NCBI RefSeq assembly: GCF_019931755.1
Contig: NZ_CP082918.1
Span: forward strand, 3,204,001-3,268,000
Length of the DNA: 64,000 bases
Reading direction: 5' to 3'
Source: Sutcliffiella horikoshii
GTDB taxonomy: Bacteria; Bacillota; Bacilli; Bacillales; Bacillaceae_I
Below, in pieces: positions 13,801-45,423 of this stretch. Within the stretch, counting starts at the first letter, position 1. Every line of letters starts with the position of its first letter. Below the pieces are notes generated by a model. The model was given only the letters and a program-made list of their open reading frames with translations. It was not told the DNA's origin and searched no databases. The translations under genes and the position numbers were made by a program.

Positions 13801-14010
13801 ACCTCCAAGGTTTATTCCGAATACCGTTTGACGAACAATTTACTCTTTTGTACAAACAAAAAAGTGTGGGTATACACATACACCCACACTTTACGATTAC
13901 GTAAGTAAAAGATAGAATCTTTCTCGTAAAACCTGCCAACTGCATGAGATGCGTCAATCAGGTGAGAAGCGGGTGCTTCTTCTTGTCCTCAAACAAGTAT
14001 TCAATTTGAC
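13801..14010 (-). promoter_or_regulatory. infC operon leader with attenuator (L20-leader type)
   Basis: The leader of about 200 nt contains a strong intrinsic terminator (AAAGTGTGGG/CCCACACTTT, 13861-13892, followed by T-rich sequence) between the promoter and infC. In Bacillus the L20 protein binds this leader and promotes termination. The terminator is visible; L20 control is inferred from position and the known B. subtilis system. Confidence 0.75.
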
Positions 14011-16404: not shown

Positions 16405-16690
16405 ATAAAAAAACCCGCCCCTCATATAATATAAGGGACGAGTTTAATATCCGTGTTTCCACCCAAGTTCCCATCTTTTAAAAAGACTAAAAGACGGCTT
16501 CATTATTAGATAACGAGGGATTTCCCCGTCAACAGCTACTGCGATGTTCACCGTTGAAGTTCAGAGGTGGTTAGGGTTTTAATCGTGATAGGAAGCTTAC
16601 AGCCGGTGACTTCCCTCTCTAAAATCCGTTTTTAAAACACTCATGTCCTCATCGATACTTTTTGAGCTATGAAGTTAAAATTGATTATGT
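16405..16690 (-). promoter_or_regulatory. T-box riboswitch of thrS
   Basis: On the minus strand the leader carries the T-box sequence TTGGGTGGAAACACGG (about 16450-16467) followed by a terminator hairpin (AAACTCGTCCCT/AGGGGCGGGTTT, 16411-16445) with a T run. Upstream lies a stem I-like region whose 3' strand reads CTAACCACCTCT, giving ACC as a candidate threonine specifier. Uncharged tRNA-Thr would stabilise the antiterminator. The usual GTACCGCG part of the T-box is changed to GAAACACG here. Confidence 0.88.
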
Positions 16691-38343: not shown

Positions 38344-38522
38344 TCTGTTTCATCCTTCCAAAACCAGACCCTTTTTCCATACTACCATAATAAAAAGCGA
38401 AATAAAAAGAATTGAGTTCGTACAGAATTTTCCTAATTTTTAAATATAAAACTATGAAAACAATATGGCAGGTTGTAAAATATGAAGTAAGGGAATTCCG
38501 GTACTCATAAGGGGTGTTATGC

Positions 38523-39644
38523 TTGAATTGGAATTATGTACATATCGTTTTTCGACTCCTGCTTGTGCTTCTCATCATCACGATTGGTCTTTTTTCGTTT
38601 TTTTATCTCTTCTCCATTGCCTATCCTTTCATCATCGCATTAGTTCTAGCGTTTTTAATAAACCCGCTCGTCAATTTACTTGAGAAGAATGGACGGCTTC
38701 CGAGAAGTTTGGCCGTTTTTCTATCAATTATGGCCTTGTTCGCGACTGTAGTTGGGGTCGTCACATTGCTAATTGTTGAAATTGTGTCCGGTACCGAGTA
38801 CTTGGCAAAAGTAGTGCCTGGTCATTTTGAAACCTTGGTCGTCTATATGGAGCAGTTTGTCGTAACTAAAATACTTCCATTGTTTAATCAGGTAAGTACG
38901 ATGTTTCATAGTTTAGAGGAGGGGCAACAACAATCCCTCTTGACAAATATTGAAAATATCGGCGGAACGGTTGCCAGCACAGTCGGCGAGTTCATCCAAT
39001 CCTTCTTAACCAACCTTCCTAAACTCATTACATGGATCCCAAGTGTTGCTACAGTATTGATTTTCTCCTTACTGGCCACCTTCTTCATCAGCAAAGACTG
39101 GTACAAACTTAGAGGAAGATTAAAAAAGATTACTCCTGTCAAGGCACAAGGAAGTCTTACAAAAGTGTTTGTTAGCTTAAAGAAAGCTTTCTTCGGTTTT
39201 ATGCGAGCACAGGCAACTCTCATTTCAATCACTACCATCATCGTATTAATAGGATTATTGATTTTACGGGTCGAATACGCGATTACCGTTGCTTTAATCA
39301 TCGGATTGGTAGATTTGATCCCTTATCTTGGAACAGGGTTGATTTTTGTTCCGTGGATTATCTTTTTAGCCATAAGCGGGAATTTGCCATTAGCTATTGG
39401 ACTTGGAGTACTTTATTTGATTGTGATCGTACAGCGTCAGTTGATGGAGCCAAAGATTTTATCGTCGAGTATCGGTCTTGATCCTTTGGCGACTTTGGTA
39501 AGTTTATTTGTCGGCTTCCAGCTGATAGGATTTCTTGGGTTGATTGTCGGGCCGGTGACAGTAGTTATTTTTAATACACTGTGGAATGCGGGAGTTATTA
39601 AAGACATTTACCTTTTCATAGTCGGGAAGAATAGGGCGGTTTAA
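38523..39644 (+). CDS. ytvI: Sporulation integral membrane protein YtvI (AI-2E transporter family)
   Basis: The protein has about 373 residues and seven or eight hydrophobic segments, with the AI-2E/PerM family C-terminal pattern (LIGLVDLIPYLGTG, VIVQRQLMEPKILSSSIGLDPLATL). The start is uncertain: TTG at 38523 is 8 bp after AAGGGG, while an in-frame GTG at 38514 overlaps that site. It is in the fxsA-citZ order as in B. subtilis. The transported substrate is not known. Confidence 0.9.
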   Translation: MNWNYVHIVFRLLLVLLIITIGLFSFFYLFSIAYPFIIALVLAFLINPLVNLLEKNGRLPRSLAVFLSIMALFATVVGVVTLLIVEIVSGTEYLAKVVPGHFETLVVYMEQFVVTKILPLFNQVSTMFHSLEEGQQQSLLTNIENIGGTVASTVGEFIQSFLTNLPKLITWIPSVATVLIFSLLATFFISKDWYKLRGRLKKITPVKAQGSLTKVFVSLKKAFFGFMRAQATLISITTIIVLIGLLILRVEYAITVALIIGLVDLIPYLGTGLIFVPWIIFLAISGNLPLAIGLGVLYLIVIVQRQLMEPKILSSSIGLDPLATLVSLFVGFQLIGFLGLIVGPVTVVIFNTLWNAGVIKDIYLFIVGKNRAV

Positions 39645-39668: not shown

Positions 39669-39799
39669 CGCTGTTCCTTTCCGCAAATGGCGTCGCTTTC
39701 CGCGGGACGGTGCTTGAGCCTCCTCGCTACGCTGCGGGGTCTCAATCTACCATTACTCCCCCGCTGGAGTCTTTGCCATTTGCTCCAATCCTCAGCTAG
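39669..39799 (-). repeat. Dispersed ~130-bp repeat, copy 6, left of the small-gene array
   Basis: CGCTGTTCCTTTCCGC at one end, CCTCAGCTAG at the other, core GAGACCCCGCAGCG on the minus strand. It follows ytvI. Confidence 0.85.
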
Positions 39800-39967: not shown

Positions 39968-40012
39968 CAAAAAGGCTTAGAGAGTTTTCCCCTCTAAGCC
40001 TTTTTACTTTAT
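39968..40012. terminator. Terminator at the end of the small-gene array
   Basis: AAAAAGGCTTAGAG pairs with CTCTAAGCCTTTTT; both strands have A or T runs. It lies after the last array gene on the minus strand. Confidence 0.8.
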
Positions 40013-40020
40013 TTCATTAT

Positions 40021-40047
40021 TCAACAATCGCTCCTAGTTTGTTGAGG
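40021..40047 (-). repeat. Array repeat R1 (short form)
   Basis: TCAACAA and TTGTTGA pair around TCGCTCCTAGT. Only the right half of the full repeat is present. It lies 9 bp past the stop of the last array gene. Confidence 0.75.
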
Positions 40048-40055
40048 AAGTAAAG

Positions 40056-40343
40056 TTACTCTACACCAAAAATGTGAGACATAATAATGCCTGTTATTAA
40101 TCCAGCAATAATAAAAGTTGGAATAGAAAGTAAAATCTTATTTCTTGATGAAATGGTATAAAACTGTTTATACAATTTACCCAACAGAGTAAAAAAAATC
40201 GCAAAAATAGATAAAGTTATTATACCTGCTATGAAATCAACTTTTGTAAAGGGAGGATTGAGATAACCATCCAAATAATAATTTATAATAATCAACATAC
40301 TAACTAATATAAATTCATAAAAAAGAAATTTAAAATAATGCAC
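40056..40343 (-). CDS. Small membrane protein, array gene 9
   Basis: The GTG start at 40343 has AAAGGGGGAG upstream and gives 95 residues; the longer frame to 40367 contains that site in its coding part. Three hydrophobic segments are seen (about 10-24, 36-54, 72-90). It is not recognised. It is the last gene of the array before R1 and the terminator. Confidence 0.7.
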   Translation of the reverse strand: MHYFKFLFYEFILVSMLIIINYYLDGYLNPPFTKVDFIAGIITLSIFAIFFTLLGKLYKQFYTISSRNKILLSIPTFIIAGLITGIIMSHIFGVE

Positions 40344-40384
40344 TTTAACTCCCCCTTTAATCCACACTGTTACAAACTCTTACT

Positions 40385-40455
40385 ACAGGGAATGCTGCCC
40401 TATTTTTTTGTAAGAAGCGACCCACTATGCTGCTATCGCGCCGAGTATGTTGAAG
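40385..40455 (-). repeat. Array repeat R2
   Basis: CTGCCC, then AAGCGACCCACTATGC and ATCGCGCCGAG: a diverged full copy. The stop codon of the next gene lies inside it. Confidence 0.75.
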
Positions 40456-40627
40456 ATGATTGTTTGCTTTTTTCGTTCTTACCCCTAACTATAAAACCAG
40501 CTATAATAAAACATCCAAACCCTATAATTTTCATAAATAAATGACTTATTTTTCCCATTTCATCAATAGTCAGTGAGAGCAAAAAAGCTCCAAATAAAAT
40601 AATGGGAATAGCAAAAAACCACCTCAA
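40433..40627 (-). CDS. Small two-segment membrane protein, array gene 8
   Basis: The 64-residue product starts at TTG with AAAGGGGGA 8 bp upstream. Hydrophobic segments lie at about 4-20 and 31-47, followed by a basic Ser-rich tail. The last ~8 residues and the stop are encoded by repeat R2. Not recognised. Confidence 0.65.
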   Translation of the reverse strand: MRWFFAIPIILFGAFLLSLTIDEMGKISHLFMKIIGFGCFIIAGFIVRGKNEKSKQSSSTYSAR

Positions 40628-40657
40628 TTTATGTATCCCCCTTTATATGAATCAAAC

Positions 40658-40739
40658 ATTCTTATCGAACAATCCTACCCAATTCTTAAGTAAGGAGCGA
40701 TCCGCTATGCTACAATCGCCCCTAGACTGCGAAAGAATA
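40658..40739 (-). repeat. Array repeat R3
   Basis: A full copy with GGAGCGATCCGCTATGC and ATCGCCCCTAG in the core. The outer arms ATTCTTATCG and CGAAAGAAT are complementary with one bulge. Confidence 0.8.
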
Positions 40740-40745
40740 ACTAAA

Positions 40746-41303
40746 TTATTTTCCACTCCAACTTGGAATAATTTCACTAAAATATGTACCAATTTTCTTA
40801 ACTTCATTCATTACACGATTTATGCCTACTTCTGTTAAGTACCAATTTTCCTTTGTTATCCCATATCTATCAACACAAGGCGAAACTAAGAACTTACAAT
40901 CTATTGGGAATTCAGCTTGATAACATAATAATGAACGACGAGCGTGGCCTGCTTTACAAACCACTATCGCTTTTTGGGGAACTATATTCTTCCGTTGAAG
41001 AACTTCTAGAGAGAAACGGGCATTTTCTAATGTATGTTGTGCTTTATCTTCTTTTAATATCGATTCTTCTGGTATTCCATTTTCTATGCCTATTCTTTTT
41101 AAATACTCCCATTCAGTAGTTCCAACGTGTGATTTAAAACCACCAGATGGCAGAATATAAGGAGCTAATCCTTGCTTATATAATTCTACCGCCTTTTCCA
41201 TAAGCTGCGGATGATCAGCACCAGGAACCAAGATTACATCTGCTGGAGAAACTGCGGTTTCCACAAAAATAAACTCAGTAATACAATCAAACGGGTTAGA
41301 CAT
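40746..41303 (-). CDS. DUF218/YdcF-like protein, array gene 7
   Basis: The 185-residue protein has the DUF218 pattern: ADVILVPGADHPQ near the N-terminus, PSGG, HTLENARFS and VVCKAGHARRSLLCY. It has no membrane segment, unlike many DUF218 members. The function of the family is unclear; it has been linked to envelope and vancomycin-sensitivity phenotypes. It lies between R4 and R3. Confidence 0.8.
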   Translation of the reverse strand: MSNPFDCITEFIFVETAVSPADVILVPGADHPQLMEKAVELYKQGLAPYILPSGGFKSHVGTTEWEYLKRIGIENGIPEESILKEDKAQHTLENARFSLEVLQRKNIVPQKAIVVCKAGHARRSLLCYQAEFPIDCKFLVSPCVDRYGITKENWYLTEVGINRVMNEVKKIGTYFSEIIPSWSGK

Positions 41304-41327
41304 CTGATAAACTCTCCTTGTACTTAT

Positions 41328-41385
41328 AGTTTTCTATTGGAGTTGGCTTCACTATGCAACAATCGCTCCTAGGTTGCGGAAAAAC
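41328..41385 (-). repeat. Array repeat R4
   Basis: CACTATGCAACAATCGCTCCTAG in two parts matches R8 closely. The left half of the core stem is missing. Outer arms GTTTTC and GAAAAAC pair with a bulge. Confidence 0.75.
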
Positions 41386-41389
41386 GAGA

Positions 41390-41602
41390 TTATCTCGAAC
41401 TCCTTATAACTTTAAAAGACAAGCTTGTTAAAATAAATGATACTCCTATTAGTATTGGTGTTACCACAAAAAGTCCTAATAGGTCAGTTTTATAATTCCA
41501 AGGCACAAAAGTGTCCCACAAAATAGACATCAATTTCCATAATACGATAAAAATTAGTAGAGCAAAAATAAAATATATTACTTTTTCAAAGACTCGTTTC
41601 AC
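41390..41602 (-). CDS. Small membrane protein, array gene 6
   Basis: The 70-residue protein has hydrophobic segments at about 8-26 and 41-62 with a basic N-terminus and a basic end. Not recognised. It lies between R5 and R4. Confidence 0.65.
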   Translation of the reverse strand: MKRVFEKVIYFIFALLIFIVLWKLMSILWDTFVPWNYKTDLLGLFVVTPILIGVSFILTSLSFKVIRSSR

Positions 41603-41663
41603 TTTTATTTAATCTTCTCCCATATGAAATTCTTAGTTGTAAATTATTAATAATAAATCCTTA

Positions 41664-41690
41664 TCCAACAATCGCCCTAGTTTGTTGAAG
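41664..41690 (-). repeat. Array repeat R5 (short form)
   Basis: CAACAA and TTGTTG pair around TCGCCCTAGT, as in R1. Confidence 0.75.
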
Positions 41691-41712
41691 ATTAGTTCTA
41701 ATAATGAATGTA

Positions 41713-42144
41713 CTATTCAAGCGAGTCTTCATCAGAGAATAGCCTATCTTTAACATAATTCACTTGCTCTACCATATGACCTATATTCCCTTCTCCAGCA
41801 TATAAGGACATATCAAAAAAGTTATTATCTAAATTAGACCAATAAAGAATATTTTCATCTCCAGAAACCAATATATCCCGTTTTAATCTACCAACATATA
41901 CTTCAACATAACAATTTTGTAGATAGTATGTAAAATCCATTAAGTGATGAAGATTTATGTCTTTATTGGAAATATTAGTTTCCTCATGGAGTTCTCTATA
42001 AGCAGCATCTATACCTTTTTCTCCATCTTCAATTTTCCCGCCTACTAAATTACTTAAGCCTTTATAAGGGTTTTTCAACCTTTCACACATTAACAACTTG
42101 TTCATATCTTTGTTATAAACCATCAATACATTATAACCTTGCAT
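41713..42144 (-). CDS. Nudix hydrolase, array gene 5
   Basis: The 143-residue protein has the Nudix box GGKIEDGEKGIDAAYREL followed by HEETN, matching Gx5Ex7REUxEE. Nudix enzymes hydrolyse nucleoside diphosphates linked to another group. The box is close to 8-oxo-dGTPase-type family members. It is a different subfamily from the next array gene, so it is not a recent duplicate. Confidence 0.88.
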   Translation of the reverse strand: MQGYNVLMVYNKDMNKLLMCERLKNPYKGLSNLVGGKIEDGEKGIDAAYRELHEETNISNKDINLHHLMDFTYYLQNCYVEVYVGRLKRDILVSGDENILYWSNLDNNFFDMSLYAGEGNIGHMVEQVNYVKDRLFSDEDSLE

Positions 42145-42150
42145 ATCATC

Positions 42151-42234
42151 ACTTCCCTATTGAGGTTAGACTGCTCAATTTTTAAGTAAGGAGCAATCCA
42201 CTATGCTTTAATCGCTCCTATTTAATGGAAGAAC
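42151..42234 (-). repeat. Array repeat R6
   Basis: Full copy: CTGCTC, TTAAGTAAGGAGCAATCCAC, TATGC and ATCGCTCCTA. Outer arms ACTTCC..ATT and AATGGAAG pair. Confidence 0.8.
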
Positions 42235-42255
42235 ATAATTAAGGTAAAGCACCAA

Positions 42256-42714
42256 TTAGATTTCACTAATGAATTTCTTAAAATCTTCAATGAAAGGTTT
42301 GTTAGTGGGAGAAATATTTTCAGGTAATTCATCTATGTTATAAAACTTTATTTCGGCACTTTCTATTCCGTCAGCTTTAAAATGCCCACTAAAAGTTGAG
42401 GATAAAAATACTACATTAACAAAGTAAACCTCGTCACCATTTGGATAAATGTGATGTTGCTGCCCGCCAGAGTAAACATTTAACAACTTCATTTCATCAA
42501 TATTTATATTTGTTTCTTCAAATACTTCTCTTTTTGCGGTTTCTTGAATACTTTCTCCTACATCCATTACACCACCAGGTATGCACCAGTTTCCATCATC
42601 ACTTCTTTTGATCAAGAGAATTTTATTATCTGGATCCGTAACAATAACACCTGCTGCACATATTATCAGTGGCATATTCCCTACTGCCTGGCGTAAAGTT
42701 TTTATATATTCCAT
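42256..42714 (-). CDS. Nudix hydrolase, array gene 4
   Basis: The 152-residue protein has the Nudix box GGVMDVGESIQETAKREV followed by FEETN. VLLIKRSDDGNWCIPGG precedes it, with ILLIKR as the substrate-side strand. The substrate is unknown. Flanked by R7 and R6. Confidence 0.9.
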   Translation of the reverse strand: MEYIKTLRQAVGNMPLIICAAGVIVTDPDNKILLIKRSDDGNWCIPGGVMDVGESIQETAKREVFEETNINIDEMKLLNVYSGGQQHHIYPNGDEVYFVNVVFLSSTFSGHFKADGIESAEIKFYNIDELPENISPTNKPFIEDFKKFISEI

Positions 42715-42734
42715 CTAATTCACCTTCTTTATAT

Positions 42735-42785
42735 GTTAGGAAGCCTGTTTACTACGCTATTGCTCCAGATTGTTATTGTAGGTAG
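42735..42785 (-). repeat. Array repeat R7 (degenerate)
   Basis: GGAAGCCTGTTTACTACGC followed by ATTGCTCCAGATTG keeps the spacing of the core but little of the stem. It is the most diverged copy. Confidence 0.55.
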
Positions 42786-42807
42786 TATAGATTGGATTTT
42801 TGAGGGT

Positions 42808-43275
42808 TCAACTCTCTATTGAGTCTTCAAATGTTCTTAGTAAAAATTCTCCGAAGCTTGGAAACTCAGTTTCAAACTTTTGTGCTTCTATTGGTAATCC
42901 ACGTAAATATGAAACAACAGCAGCGTTATCATCGTTTTCATCCTTCACATTAGAGCAATCTAAACAATAATACATATTGTCATAACCAGCAAAGTAGAAA
43001 CAAACCAGGTGTTCGGGGAATCCTTCTTCTTGTCTAAAGTGTTTAGTAATCCAAACCATACTTGGAACTCCACCTTCTTCAATTCCAAGGCCGTATATTT
43101 CTTCTCCAAAAATGTCACCAACACCATATCTTTTTAGAAATAGTCTATAACTACTAGGTAATTTGACGTTTAGCGTTTCTTCAGCAGAATAAATTAAATC
43201 TTCCTGAATTTCACCAATAAAATCTCCCTCATCCGAATGCTTCTCAATGATTTCAAATGCCTTTTTAATAACCAA
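42808..43275 (-). CDS. SMI1/KNR4 family protein, array gene 3
   Basis: The 155-residue acidic protein has the SMI1_KNR4 pattern (LPSSYRLFLKRYGVGDIFG, then CFYFAGYDNMYYCLD). In bacteria this superfamily includes many immunity proteins of polymorphic toxins. No toxin gene is nearby, so an orphan immunity role is only possible. Flanked by R8 and R7. Confidence 0.85.
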   Translation of the reverse strand: MVIKKAFEIIEKHSDEGDFIGEIQEDLIYSAEETLNVKLPSSYRLFLKRYGVGDIFGEEIYGLGIEEGGVPSMVWITKHFRQEEGFPEHLVCFYFAGYDNMYYCLDCSNVKDENDDNAAVVSYLRGLPIEAQKFETEFPSFGEFLLRTFEDSIES

Positions 43276-43317
43276 TTAATTTCTCCCCTAGTAAAAAAAT
43301 TTAAAATAGCTCTCTTA

Positions 43318-43390
43318 AGGTAAACTGCCCATTCTTATGTAAGGAGCGATCCACTATGCAACAATCGCTCCTAGATTGCGGAATAGTTGT
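43318..43390 (-). repeat. Array repeat R8 (best full form)
   Basis: CTGCCC, TTATGTAAGGAGCGATCCAC, TATGCAACA, ATCGCTCCTAG, ATTGCGG. AGGAGCGAT and ATCGCTCCT form a 9-bp stem with a 13-nt loop. Confidence 0.85.
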
Positions 43391-43421
43391 ATTGAACTAA
43401 CGCCACCCGCTTTAATAAGAG

Positions 43422-43703
43422 TTAACTTTGTTTTATGTTGTTGGCTTTGCGATTTGCGTAATAACCTGCTTTAACCAGTCCAACTACAATAGCAGATATA
43501 GCTCCGTTAATGAAAATAACAACAAATAAGGCAAGGACAGATAGTTCAAAAGCTACCGAGTAAACAAATCCTATTAACATACATAGCAATACTGTAAAGA
43601 TAAAATGAACTTTCTTGAAAAGAAATGTAATAAGTAAACTCAATATCATTACCAAAGAAACCATACCCATAAAGTAAAAGGAAAATACAAGTAAAAACTC
43701 CAT
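43422..43703 (-). CDS. Small membrane protein, array gene 2
   Basis: The 93-residue protein has three hydrophobic segments (about 3-27, 32-54, 58-80) and a basic tail. AAAGGGG lies upstream of the ATG. Not recognised. Flanked by R9 and R8. Confidence 0.65.
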   Translation of the reverse strand: MEFLLVFSFYFMGMVSLVMILSLLITFLFKKVHFIFTVLLCMLIGFVYSVAFELSVLALFVVIFINGAISAIVVGLVKAGYYANRKANNIKQS

Positions 43704-43752
43704 ACAATACCCCTTTCTTCTCTATGCTATATTATGCTTTTTATTGTTTTAA

Positions 43753-43830
43753 CTTGTTGAATTATTCTGCCCTATTCCTACATAAGGAGCAATCCATTGT
43801 GCTGCAATCGCTCCTAGTTACTTCAACAAG
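43753..43830 (-). repeat. Array repeat R9 (full, perfect outer arms)
   Basis: CTTGTTGAA at the left end is the exact complement of TTCAACAAG at the right end. The core has CTGCCC, ATAAGGAGCAATCCA and ATCGCTCCTAG. It ends 7 bp before the stop of the first array gene. Confidence 0.85.
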
Positions 43831-43836
43831 TATTTA

Positions 43837-44142
43837 TTATCTTTCAACCCATTCTTTAAAAACATCTAAAATTTCCTCTAAGTTTTCAGGACCACCAAAC
43901 CCAACAAAGTGAAAACCATCCCATTCTGGAATATAGTCAGTTTTACAAAAAATCCAGTCACTGTTAGTCCTTTCAATATCAGTTCTTTTAAAGGGTTTAT
44001 GCCTTAAATCAGTATCTTCTATACTAATCTTTACACTCCATCCAGGGTTATCTATTGTATCAATTCGTATACCATATCTATTTTCCCAGTCACCATTACA
44101 TTGTTCAAAATACCATTTTTGAATCCAACTTAATGTCCGCAT
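43837..44142 (-). CDS. Imm53-like immunity protein, array gene 1
   Basis: The 101-residue protein starts MRTLSWIQKWYFEQCNGDWE and contains TIDNPGWSVKISIEDT, the pattern of the Imm53 family of predicted immunity proteins. It is the first gene of the array in the direction of transcription. GGAGGG lies before the ATG. The matching toxin is not in the window. Confidence 0.78.
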   Translation of the reverse strand: MRTLSWIQKWYFEQCNGDWENRYGIRIDTIDNPGWSVKISIEDTDLRHKPFKRTDIERTNSDWIFCKTDYIPEWDGFHFVGFGGPENLEEILDVFKEWVER

Positions 44143-44168
44143 AACACCCTCCGTTACAAATGACCTTC

Positions 44169-44194
44169 TTCCATTATCCTGCCCTTTAATGGAA
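44169..44194 (-). repeat. Array repeat R10 (short form, upstream end)
   Basis: TTCCATTA and TAATGGAA are perfect complements around TCCTGCCCTT. It keeps the left half of the full repeat, unlike R1 and R5. It lies in the leader of the first array gene. Confidence 0.7.
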
Positions 44195-44333
44195 TAACAT
44201 CTTTATCTTTATATTAACATAAAATTCCATAATTATTTTAATAATTAAAAAATACAATATTTAGAAACAAGCATTTTTGTTATTAACATATAAAAAGCAC
44301 TGCAACATTAACCTTAGTCGAATGAAGTCACCT

Positions 44334-44457
44334 TGTTGATTGGAGTGGAAGGCGCGCAGACGCCCGCGGGAGGAAGGGACAGGTGAGACCCCGCAACGGA
44401 GTGAGGAGACTCACGGACCGCCCGCAGGCAAGCGAAGCGCCTGGAACGGAAATCAAC
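44334..44457 (+). repeat. Dispersed ~130-bp repeat, copy 7, right of the small-gene array
   Basis: GTTGATTGGAG, GAGACCCCGCAACGGAGTGA and CGGAAATCAAC on the plus strand. It is nearly identical to copy 4 and inverted relative to copy 6. Confidence 0.88.
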
Positions 44458-44508: not shown

Positions 44509-45423
44509 TTATTTAAACAAATCAGCAATGGATTGGAACAGGTTACGGAAAAAGTCTTGAACACCCTGCCAGAAACCTTCATTTCCTACCACTTCATCAA
44601 TTTTATTCTTAATGTCAGTAGAAATTTGCTCTAGCTGATTCTTCACATTATCAAAATTGATATTCAACTCACGCATTTTTTCAAAAAGATCAATCAACAG
44701 TTGTCTATCTTCTTCACTTAACTCGATATTCAACTTTGCTAATTGCTCTTCCACAATCTTCTCAACATCTTCTCTTGTTGCTGGATTTTGCTCTGCAATT
44801 TGCTTTTTGATTTCCGTCAGCAACTCACTGACTTTTTCACTGTCCATGCCTTCTTCTTCTGCAAGCTTTGTTGCAATGGACAATTCTTCGTTTGCCACTT
44901 CCATGCGGTCTTTATTAAGCGCTTCTCCGCTTACTTCATATGCTTTATATATACCCACAAGCGCAGAATGACCACTAACCTTCACTGGTGATGCAACGAT
45001 AACTTCCGCATCCTCAATTCCTGCAGTTAAAAGGGCGTTGGCATACATATCATCTGTCACTTGAGTGATATTTTCAGGAGTGGCTCTTGTAATAACAAGC
45101 CCTTCCCCTTTTTCTTTTCTGGTAATTTTAGCAGAGGAGAACATACGGGCGTTTCTGTCTTCTCCCTCAATATAGGTAACAAGGTCTTCTCCTGTTACTG
45201 TGATTTCCTCGACCATTTCAGGGTTCTTTACATTTAGATGCTCGCGCACTTCCTGCTTTTGATCATCATTCAAGGTCCCGCCGTATACGACAATAGGAAG
45301 GCCAAACTTTTCATTGATGCTCTCTTCCTCATCTTCTCCGCCAGCAGCTTGTACAACATTTGATAATGTAAGGCCAGATAAAACCAAGGTCAACACTAGC
45401 AACAATTTAAACCAATGCTTCAT
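44509..45423 (-). CDS. Secreted DUF1002 protein
   Basis: The 304-residue protein has a signal peptide (about 1-26, ending VVQAAG). The DUF1002 region (FGLPIVVYGGTLNDDQKQEV, then ITRATPENITQVTDDMYANAL) follows. The C-terminal third is helical and acidic. The family resembles YpuA of B. subtilis. Function is unknown. B. subtilis has no gene of this kind between ytvI and fxsA, so it may belong to the inserted segment. Confidence 0.85.
   Translation of the reverse strand: MKHWFKLLLVLTLVLSGLTLSNVVQAAGGEDEEESINEKFGLPIVVYGGTLNDDQKQEVREHLNVKNPEMVEEITVTGEDLVTYIEGEDRNARMFSSAKITRKEKGEGLVITRATPENITQVTDDMYANALLTAGIEDAEVIVASPVKVSGHSALVGIYKAYEVSGEALNKDRMEVANEELSIATKLAEEEGMDSEKVSELLTEIKKQIAEQNPATREDVEKIVEEQLAKLNIELSEEDRQLLIDLFEKMRELNINFDNVKNQLEQISTDIKNKIDEVVGNEGFWQGVQDFFRNLFQSIADLFK

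Follow-up and report, generated by a model that had tools for sequence, protein, structure and literature searches.

The described systems closest to the locus presented here are integrons, whose layout is taken for comparison from the available part of PMC8946536. Firmicutes are counted among the phyla with integrons (excerpt of PMC8618304); integrons are called 'extremely rare' in Firmicutes and in two other clades, for reasons described as unclear, and IntegronFinder 2.0 reported one complete integron and a few clusters of attC sites lacking integron-integrases (CALIN) in Firmicutes (excerpts of PMC9024848). The integron integrase IntI has a specific insertion in its catalytic domain (excerpt of PMC8138268). 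The present analysis concerns a 64,000-nucleotide (nt) stretch of the Sutcliffiella horikoshii chromosome (NZ_CP082918.1, positions 3,204,001 to 3,268,000), called the window below, in which nine minus-strand open reading frames (ORFs) alternate with ten copies of a repeated site in an array bounded by a DUF1002 and a ytvI gene. This arrangement had been described in a sequence-only reading, made by a model without database searches, and was borne out. Judged from sequence comparison, the window array is most likely part of an integron-like gene-cassette system of Bacilli, and one without recombinase. Comparison between genomes carries this reading: the content of the locus is variable, homology switches at the core of the site (GG(N)^GC, where ^ marks the exchange point), the loci of a tyrosine recombinase of 280 amino acids (aa) are rich in sites, and a conserved block beside the recombinase gene runs in seven copies to the GG of the core, with different cassettes after it. 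The novel cassette-exchange system that the sequence-only reading had proposed gains support from the variable arrays, from breaks inside the site and from the co-occurring recombinase.

The array resembles an integron or a CALIN in being a one-orientation series of unrelated small genes with one site per gene. Each of its long sites combines two simple sites and has both outer and inner inverted arms; attC sites are likewise built from two simple sites. Arrays without recombinase and cassettes common to several species are further likenesses, and in relatives (the window is without these features) a recombinase gene is found with an adjacent fixed half-site and an outward promoter-like block. 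The system differs from integrons in its Xer-like recombinase, far below the threshold of the IntI model (97.6 of 265 bits), in exchange at GG(N)^GC and not at the integron crossover G^TTRRRY, in the position of the hairpin at the 5' end of the gene in most mapped junctions, and in the parallel layout of recombinase and array in one clade. The definition of a CALIN asks for two or more attC sites and no integron integrase; the ten sites of the window are candidate counterparts of attC sites. Its genome (G000) has no member of the recombinase family and the array is therefore one without recombinase, as CALIN are for integrons. The system is integron-like in its apparent operation; by the membership tests run, it is not an integron. 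Xer/dif modules, which on Acinetobacter plasmids are known as pdif modules, share with it an Xer-like recombinase, short inverted arms, a core of ~6 bp and genes bounded by sites; they differ in that the recombinase here is separate from the host XerC/XerD-like proteins and has a fixed half-site beside it. The bcr repeats of the Bacillus cereus group are likewise interspersed repeats (100–400 bp) of Bacillaceae, whereas their mobility is tied to a TTTAT motif and the available description mentions neither gene cassettes nor a recombinase, so that they are set apart by description only (excerpt of PMC6542083). RIT and Tn554-type elements also link simple tyrosine recombinases to mobile elements, but combine several of them in one element, whereas one family member per platform accompanies an array of exchangeable genes here (excerpt of PMC8138268). 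A literature search by title and start of abstract, with most subscription journals and preprints outside its scope, found no description of this cassette system among the papers listed.

The ytvI–DUF1002 interval was compared between species representatives, not strains of one species. The DUF1002 gene was located in 15 of the 16 genus genomes (the sixteenth is 80% complete), and the interval measures 3.9–20.5 kb in seven of them, window included, and 47–453 bp in eight. DUF1002 is 97–99% identical to that of the window in the other six filled loci and 79–91% in the eight empty ones. Gene lists differ among all seven filled intervals. A three-gene block is common to G010, G012 and G013, and a 170-aa gene to G005, G012 and G013; the window has its 70-aa gene in common with G007 and the pair of SUKH and Nudix genes with G012. 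Recognised sites range from one weak match (G005, G013) to eight per filled interval, and some contents are unlike small cassettes, as with the ABC-type transporter of G006 and the other long genes of G006 and G013. The interval of G006 also contains the 280-aa recombinase gene. Cassettes of the window recur elsewhere: the Imm53 cassette is found in a different array of G014 (93.6% identical), where homology starts at site 0, and the SUKH-Nudix pair in arrays of G014 and G012 and, in two pieces, of G010 (89–98%). Genes common to several arrays have different neighbours. An ordinary operon was considered and ruled out by the variable gene content at the locus. The sequence-only reading had looked to arrays that keep their kind of site at one locus while the genes differ, and to gain or loss of a gene together with its site; both were found among the species representatives, with breaks within the site. 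Neither of the findings that it held would speak for an operon, the same gene order in distant species or the lack of repeats elsewhere, was encountered in the genomes searched.

The position of exchange was mapped on 318 sites from the examined loci, anchored at the core. Aligned cassettes pass from near-identical to unrelated within the site. Pairs were chosen exclusively on flanks beyond -28 and +70, which gave 28 left-shared and 25 right-shared pairs; in the pooled profile each site was used at most twice (28 left-shared and 22 right-shared pairs). At -40 to -15, identity is ~0.74 in left-shared, ~0.27 in right-shared and 0.30 in random pairs, while at +2 to +35 it is 0.64–1.00 in right-shared pairs, 0.52 on average in left-shared pairs and 0.38 in random ones. 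Right-shared pairs stay at the random level until about -15 and then rise over the conserved arm. The switch in identity falls on average at the GG(N)^GC core, and the identical run over the junction has a median of 5 nt in left-shared pairs (maximum 23) and 3 nt in right-shared pairs (maximum 9). One left-shared pair joins the last cassette of the window with Peribacillus G097. A second core, GG^GCAG, is used at some junctions, where the same gene is found with the whole hairpin or with its 3' part only (G007 with G013, 0.85; G010 with G012, 0.88). Note that a crossover at the middle of the repeat, considered at an earlier stage, was replaced by GG(N)^GC after the pooled profile. Such a switch of homology at the core is the signature expected of site-specific exchange, and cassette exchange almost certainly takes place at a defined core.

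The simple site appears as a pair of inverted arms, with ideal form CTTATTCAACAATC / GATTGTTGAATAAG, around a 6–8 bp core GG(N)GC; a near-ideal copy, CTTATTCAACAATC-TAGGGC-GATTGTTGAATAAG, lies downstream of the recombinase gene of G004. Long sites have two cores with a stem between them, and the sites of Sutcliffiella and Peribacillus are often tandem, with left core GG(N)GC, right core GGGCAG and the hairpin in between. The inner stem co-varies, with the alignment itself fitted to that structure: 88.1% of 700 cells are paired, compared with 42–67% when slid, and covariation is 0.210 as opposed to 0.05 or less. A stem of 5 bp or more can start at the core in 186 of 317 sites compared with 102 of 316 control stretches, and a T-rich tract follows 98 of the 317 sites, so that a terminator role is possible; the hairpin may be a folded single-strand substrate, a terminator or both. 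The sequence-only reading had stated that the repeats lack a consistent RYYYAAC/GTTRRRY pair. In relatives, many copies have outer arms that read ATTCAAC...GTTGAAT and match it, yet the mapped crossover lies elsewhere. R1, a covariance model built on ten repeat copies, has 16 matches in the genome of the window at E<=1 and 14 at E<=0.01, in several clusters; 15 of the 16 genus genomes (own included) have copies at E<=0.01 and 14 at 1e-5, and neither of two genomes from two sister genera has one. With stricter filters, 14 genomes of an even draw of 299 from the order had a match; ten belong to this genus, three to one other and one to a third. Database records with the repeat pattern are those of Sutcliffiella horikoshii (also as Bacillus horikoshii), S. 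deserti and Bacillus spp. Several Sutcliffiella genomes have yet another type of site, whose core is GGGC-GC and whose inner stem resembles GCGCGATCC...GGATCAGCGC (loci of G014, G003, G004 and G006). In the large contigs of G000, G006, G011 and G014 the repeats lie on the plus strand at low coordinates and on the minus strand at high ones, with one exception seen (G011:C1:2825408), as if cassettes followed the direction of replication.

A co-occurring recombinase, which the sequence-only reading had also suggested to look for, was found in the arrays of relatives. The 280-aa tyrosine recombinase was reached in the G006 array by a TIGR02249 search of the genus; a relative 81% identical to it lies in an array of ~30 sites in G097, from another family. 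Counted at an identity of at least 59% over at least ~90% of the length, the recombinase family is present sporadically in 48 of 299 genomes of the order, spread over 20 families (the G114 copy only with an internal stop); the other copies listed in that draw are fragments, broken or at 45% identity or below. Across the class, 25 of 398 genomes match at 1e-80, families of other orders included, where identity goes down to 49%. When nine other tyrosine recombinases are included in a tree, the 58 intact copies group as a single long-branched clade (100/99) apart from the XerC/XerD-like rows, subject to a warning about long outgroup branches; within the family there are two large subclades (21 rows, 100/96; 24 rows, 97/87) besides smaller ones. 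Catalytic residues K162, H229, R232, H255 and Y264 are present in all 41 members compared and R138 in 40 of them. The nearest solved structures are XerA and XerD, followed by IntI4, with TM-scores (template modelling) near 0.5 for a modest model (predicted local distance difference test, pLDDT, 80.8; predicted TM-score, pTM, 0.58). Three members reach 222, 222.8 and 218.3 bits against a cut-off of 220 with the best NCBIfam model, NF040815, whose product name includes 'integron integrase', and only 97.6, 105 and 100.4 bits with the IntI model TIGR02249 (cut-off 265). No protein above the TIGR02249 cut-off was found in the 16 genus genomes, among the matches listed. The Phage_integrase domain (residues 107–267) aligns to positions 2–168 of 172 in 161 residues, and TIGR02249 matches stop near residue 180 and resume near 237, with a similar gap in XerC/XerD matches; judged from these match coordinates, there is no sign in the family of the IntI-specific catalytic-domain insertion. 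No match at E<=1e-60 was found in 50,697 phage records, while nine of 72,556 plasmid records match. One of the family members (CP053689.1, 127827-128663) is on a plasmid recorded as from Arthrobacter citreus, a surprising host and possibly a misnamed record. G002 has recombinase remains only and no R1 match, which fits decay. A second tyrosine recombinase family, of ~310–360 aa and 35–45% identical to the 280-aa family, also recurs across families (e.g. G086:C1:1030722-1031522). Separately, four tyrosine recombinase genes, called with lengths of 278, 293, 276 and 292 aa, stand in tandem at G000:C1:3162990-3166450; this cluster occurs in at least three of the 16 genus genomes (G000, G014 and G012, among the matches listed). 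Near it are a gene for a 1248-aa ATPase-like protein and genes that we take to be CBASS-like (cyclic-oligonucleotide-based antiphage signalling).

Sites are enriched around the 280-aa recombinase. In a leave-one-family-out design, a profile trained on sites from the Sutcliffiella and Peribacillus arrays and from recombinase loci of the families not being tested was applied to 18 loci, 17 of which have a control region (G106 and G083 left out). The 17 loci average 8.8 sites per 20 kb, while a single region picked arbitrarily from each of these genomes has 2.0 on average (one-sided Wilcoxon p=0.0015), and the reversed sequences give 0–1 sites per locus. A cross-family profile trained partly on the loci it scored was set aside. 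Five recombinase loci of other orders were scanned as well: 15 sites on a single strand were found in one, matches at four and at three places in two more, and three and two in the remaining pair; palindromic matches on both strands were counted once and the reversed control gave one match. The strand of the sites relative to the recombinase gene differs between two recombinase clades.

In the closest clade (22 copies at 72% identity or more), the recombinase stop codon and a terminator-like stretch are followed by a promoter-like block, TTGNNN-N17-AATAATT(G), in 14 copies from six families. Its spacing is always 17, the spacer differs between genera, and the blocks of G223 and G266 are identical; the block string TTGNNN-N17-AATAATT is found in none of the 39 other copies. 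In seven copies from Sutcliffiella and Peribacillus the block continues via TATTAAGCAAT, or nearly so, to the core GG, after which a different gene follows each time: identity is 0.92 over the 23 nt to the left and 0.35 over the 40 nt to the right. In the second large clade a different conserved block precedes the gene, with its string present in 14 of the 39 other copies, and the sites are directed away from the gene: in G055, G111, G273, G165 and G129, 39 of 41 lie on the minus strand. In G055, G111 and G273 this block ends at AACGG, and a GCAGG-like start comes next. By analogy with integrons, the conserved blocks beside the recombinase are probably counterparts of the attI site and of the cassette promoter (Pc); the block could also be a binding site of the recombinase.

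A cassette would consist of one gene, sometimes two, flanked on either side by part of a recombination site. The dedicated 280-aa recombinase of relatives would exchange strands within the core; this family is very probably the enzyme of cassette exchange. Cassettes would leave, probably as circles, and re-enter other sites, among them the fixed half-site beside the recombinase gene and next to an outward promoter. The array of the window may have been fed in trans or by a platform since lost. We infer the action of the recombinase, the formation of circles, the function of the promoter and the supply of the window array from the comparisons above.

Several observations weigh against this account. 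At the junctions, left-shared pairs remain above random to the right of the core (0.52 versus 0.38), some with identical runs of up to 23 nt; two of them (G003 with G014) represent one locus that runs on past the core; and the pairs share genomes and sites, hence are not independent. The empty loci all belong to more distant relatives, and no gain or loss was seen at strain level. Five of the 17 control regions have sites (21, 7, 3, 1 and 1) away from the recombinase; because of these matches, other arrays must exist. A profile trained on Sutcliffiella only gives a weak enrichment outside the genus (2.1 versus 0.3 sites, p=0.049, 16 loci), and the recombinase loci of Sutcliffiella have sites on both strands (e.g. 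12 and 4 in G004). Beside the recombinase, eight of the 22 closest-clade copies have no promoter-like block, in seven of the 14 that have it the block ends before any core, and GC follows the core GG in only four of the seven copies that reach it. The outer arms pair in place slightly above permuted ones (6.43 versus 5.93, 3 of 200 as high). Pairing between both ends of one cassette shows no excess (88 of 200 permutations as high), and co-variation of the two ends was dropped as a candidate feature. Within the array, promoter- and terminator-like sites are at chance level (24 versus 21.2; 3 versus 2.5). An intact family copy is present in only five of the 16 genus genomes, and in the genome of the window the best match is 34% identical, in line with the sequence-only statement that no recombinase is near.

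That last point speaks for assigning the arrays to another enzyme, XerC/XerD or the four tandem recombinases of G000, with the 280-aa family as a passenger cassette: arrays are present in a genome from which the family is absent. XerC/XerD-like genes (298 and ~315 aa) are found in all 16 genus genomes, and the four-recombinase cluster lies ~5 kb from a repeat copy in G000 and G014. The cluster was however found, among the matches listed, in three of the 16 genus genomes, and belongs to an island with CBASS-like genes that G000 and G014 have in common. It is the 280-aa gene that the fixed half-site and promoter-like block adjoin, with cassettes diverging directly after the core; the 17 loci outside Sutcliffiella are site-enriched around it, and the strand of the array varies with its clade. 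Another enzyme in its place is improbable.

Shuffling of genes by homologous recombination between dispersed repeats, which would be only terminators or mRNA hairpins, draws on the stems that start at the core, the T-rich tracts that follow some of them and the co-varying inner stem in the alignment fitted to it. RecA pathways need longer identical stretches than the 3–5 nt (medians) that span the junctions. The breaks fall on average at the core, exchange spans genera whose repeat sequences differ, and terminators leave the fixed half-site beside the recombinase unexplained; this explanation is very unlikely. The sequence-only reading had also offered a bank of orphan genes linked by a mobile hairpin. 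In such a case a hairpin comparable to a miniature inverted-repeat transposable element (MITE) or a repetitive extragenic palindrome (REP) would have inserted between resident genes in their ordinary order. Sites do occur at many chromosomal places, but the genes at the locus differ between close relatives and move together with the part-sites on both of their sides, by which the candidate was ruled out; it is hardly conceivable now. Site-specific exchange of cassettes at the core is the reading retained.

The features of the array are collected in Table 1. The sequence-only count of ten hairpin repeats stands as to ten sites; only five are full hairpins, three are short, one has a 3'-type core only and one is degenerate. 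Its list of unrelated families is backed by Pfam for DUF218, the two Nudix proteins, SMI1/KNR4 and Imm53 (scan of ten proteins, nine from the array), while the four small ORFs are hydrophobic-looking and have no Pfam match. The ribosome sites of the cassette genes come from by-eye reading of the sequence. The SUKH gene 3a moves together with the Nudix gene 3b and forms with it a two-gene cassette. Gene 8 has a relative in the Peribacillus G097 array, with a common 3' end as far as the core, and the flank to the right of site 9 is common to G007, G006 and G005. The motif TAGG[A/G]?GCGATT has seven minus-strand copies in the window, every one of them within the array, and no plus-strand copy; the mean over 200 mononucleotide shuffles is 0.175 (maximum 2). 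At gathering thresholds no Rfam element lies within the array; the two Rfam matches of the window are a T-box leader (16431-16664) and an L20 leader (13852-13990). GC-rich inverted repeats of 74 nt (73% complementary) stand on both sides of the array (39690-39763 and 44365-44438), and ~140 nt related to them are dispersed across many of the loci examined.

Table 1. Genes and candidate recombination sites of the window array, with the two flanking genes (positions in the window; ^ marks the exchange point)
Feature	Position	Strand	Remarks
DUF1002 gene, outside array	44509-45423	-	Pfam PF06207 4.8e-73; anchor of locus comparison
Site 0, 3'-type core only, upstream array edge	44160..44200, core GG 44184	-	...ATTCCATTAAA-GG^GCAGGATAATGG
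Gene 1, Imm53-family, 101 aa	43837..44142	-	Pfam PF15580 E=1e-31
Site 1, long form	43754..43832, core 43814	-	R1 87.5 bits
Gene 2, small hydrophobic-looking, 93 aa	43422..43703	-	no Pfam match
Site 2, long form	43312..43389, core 43371	-	R1 85.7 bits
Gene 3a, SUKH / SMI1-KNR4, 155 aa, TTG start	42808..43275	-	Pfam SUKH_5 2.2e-20
Site 3, degenerate, within two-gene cassette	42745..42785, core 42766	-	inside segment common to G012 and G014
Gene 3b, Nudix hydrolase, 152 aa	42256..42714	-	Pfam NUDIX 3.2e-23
Site 4, long form	42158..42236, core 42218	-	R1 80.2 bits
Gene 4, Nudix hydrolase, 143 aa	41713..42144	-	Pfam NUDIX 3.1e-12
Site 5, short form	41655..41697, core 41677	-	CAACAAACTA-GG^GCGATTGTTGG; left edge of cassette common to G007
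Gene 5, small hydrophobic-looking, 70 aa	41390..41602	-	98% identical to G007 cassette, other neighbours there
Site 6, short form	41346..41390, core 41369	-	
Gene 6, DUF218 protein, 185 aa	40746..41303	-	Pfam PF02698 2.5e-21
Site 7, long form	40662..40740, core 40722	-	R1 85.2 bits
Gene 7, small hydrophobic-looking, 64 aa	40433..40627	-	95% identical cassette in G003
Site 8, long form, overlaps end of gene 7	40382..40460, core 40442	-	R1 67.5 bits
Gene 8, small hydrophobic-looking, 94 aa from GTG, ORF open from 40367	40056..40340	-	
Site 9, short form, last cassette to chromosomal flank	40012..40056, core 40034	-	
ytvI-like gene, outside array	38514-39644	+	name from the sequence-only reading; anchor of locus comparison

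An integron may well have evolved independently across the class Bacilli, as a second cassette platform with an Xer-derived recombinase, its own attI and Pc and arrays of double-core sites. If this is true, Bacillaceae and their relatives have a new gene-capture platform, and Bacilli would not be integron-poor but would use another platform that is missed by searches based on IntI and attC. A different recombinase with different sites may then explain in part why integrons are scarce in Firmicutes. The system would also supply an inventory of cassette genes whose use is unknown, together with a compact recombinase for which a core site is defined, and the apparent lack of integrons in Gram-positive bacteria becomes directly testable.

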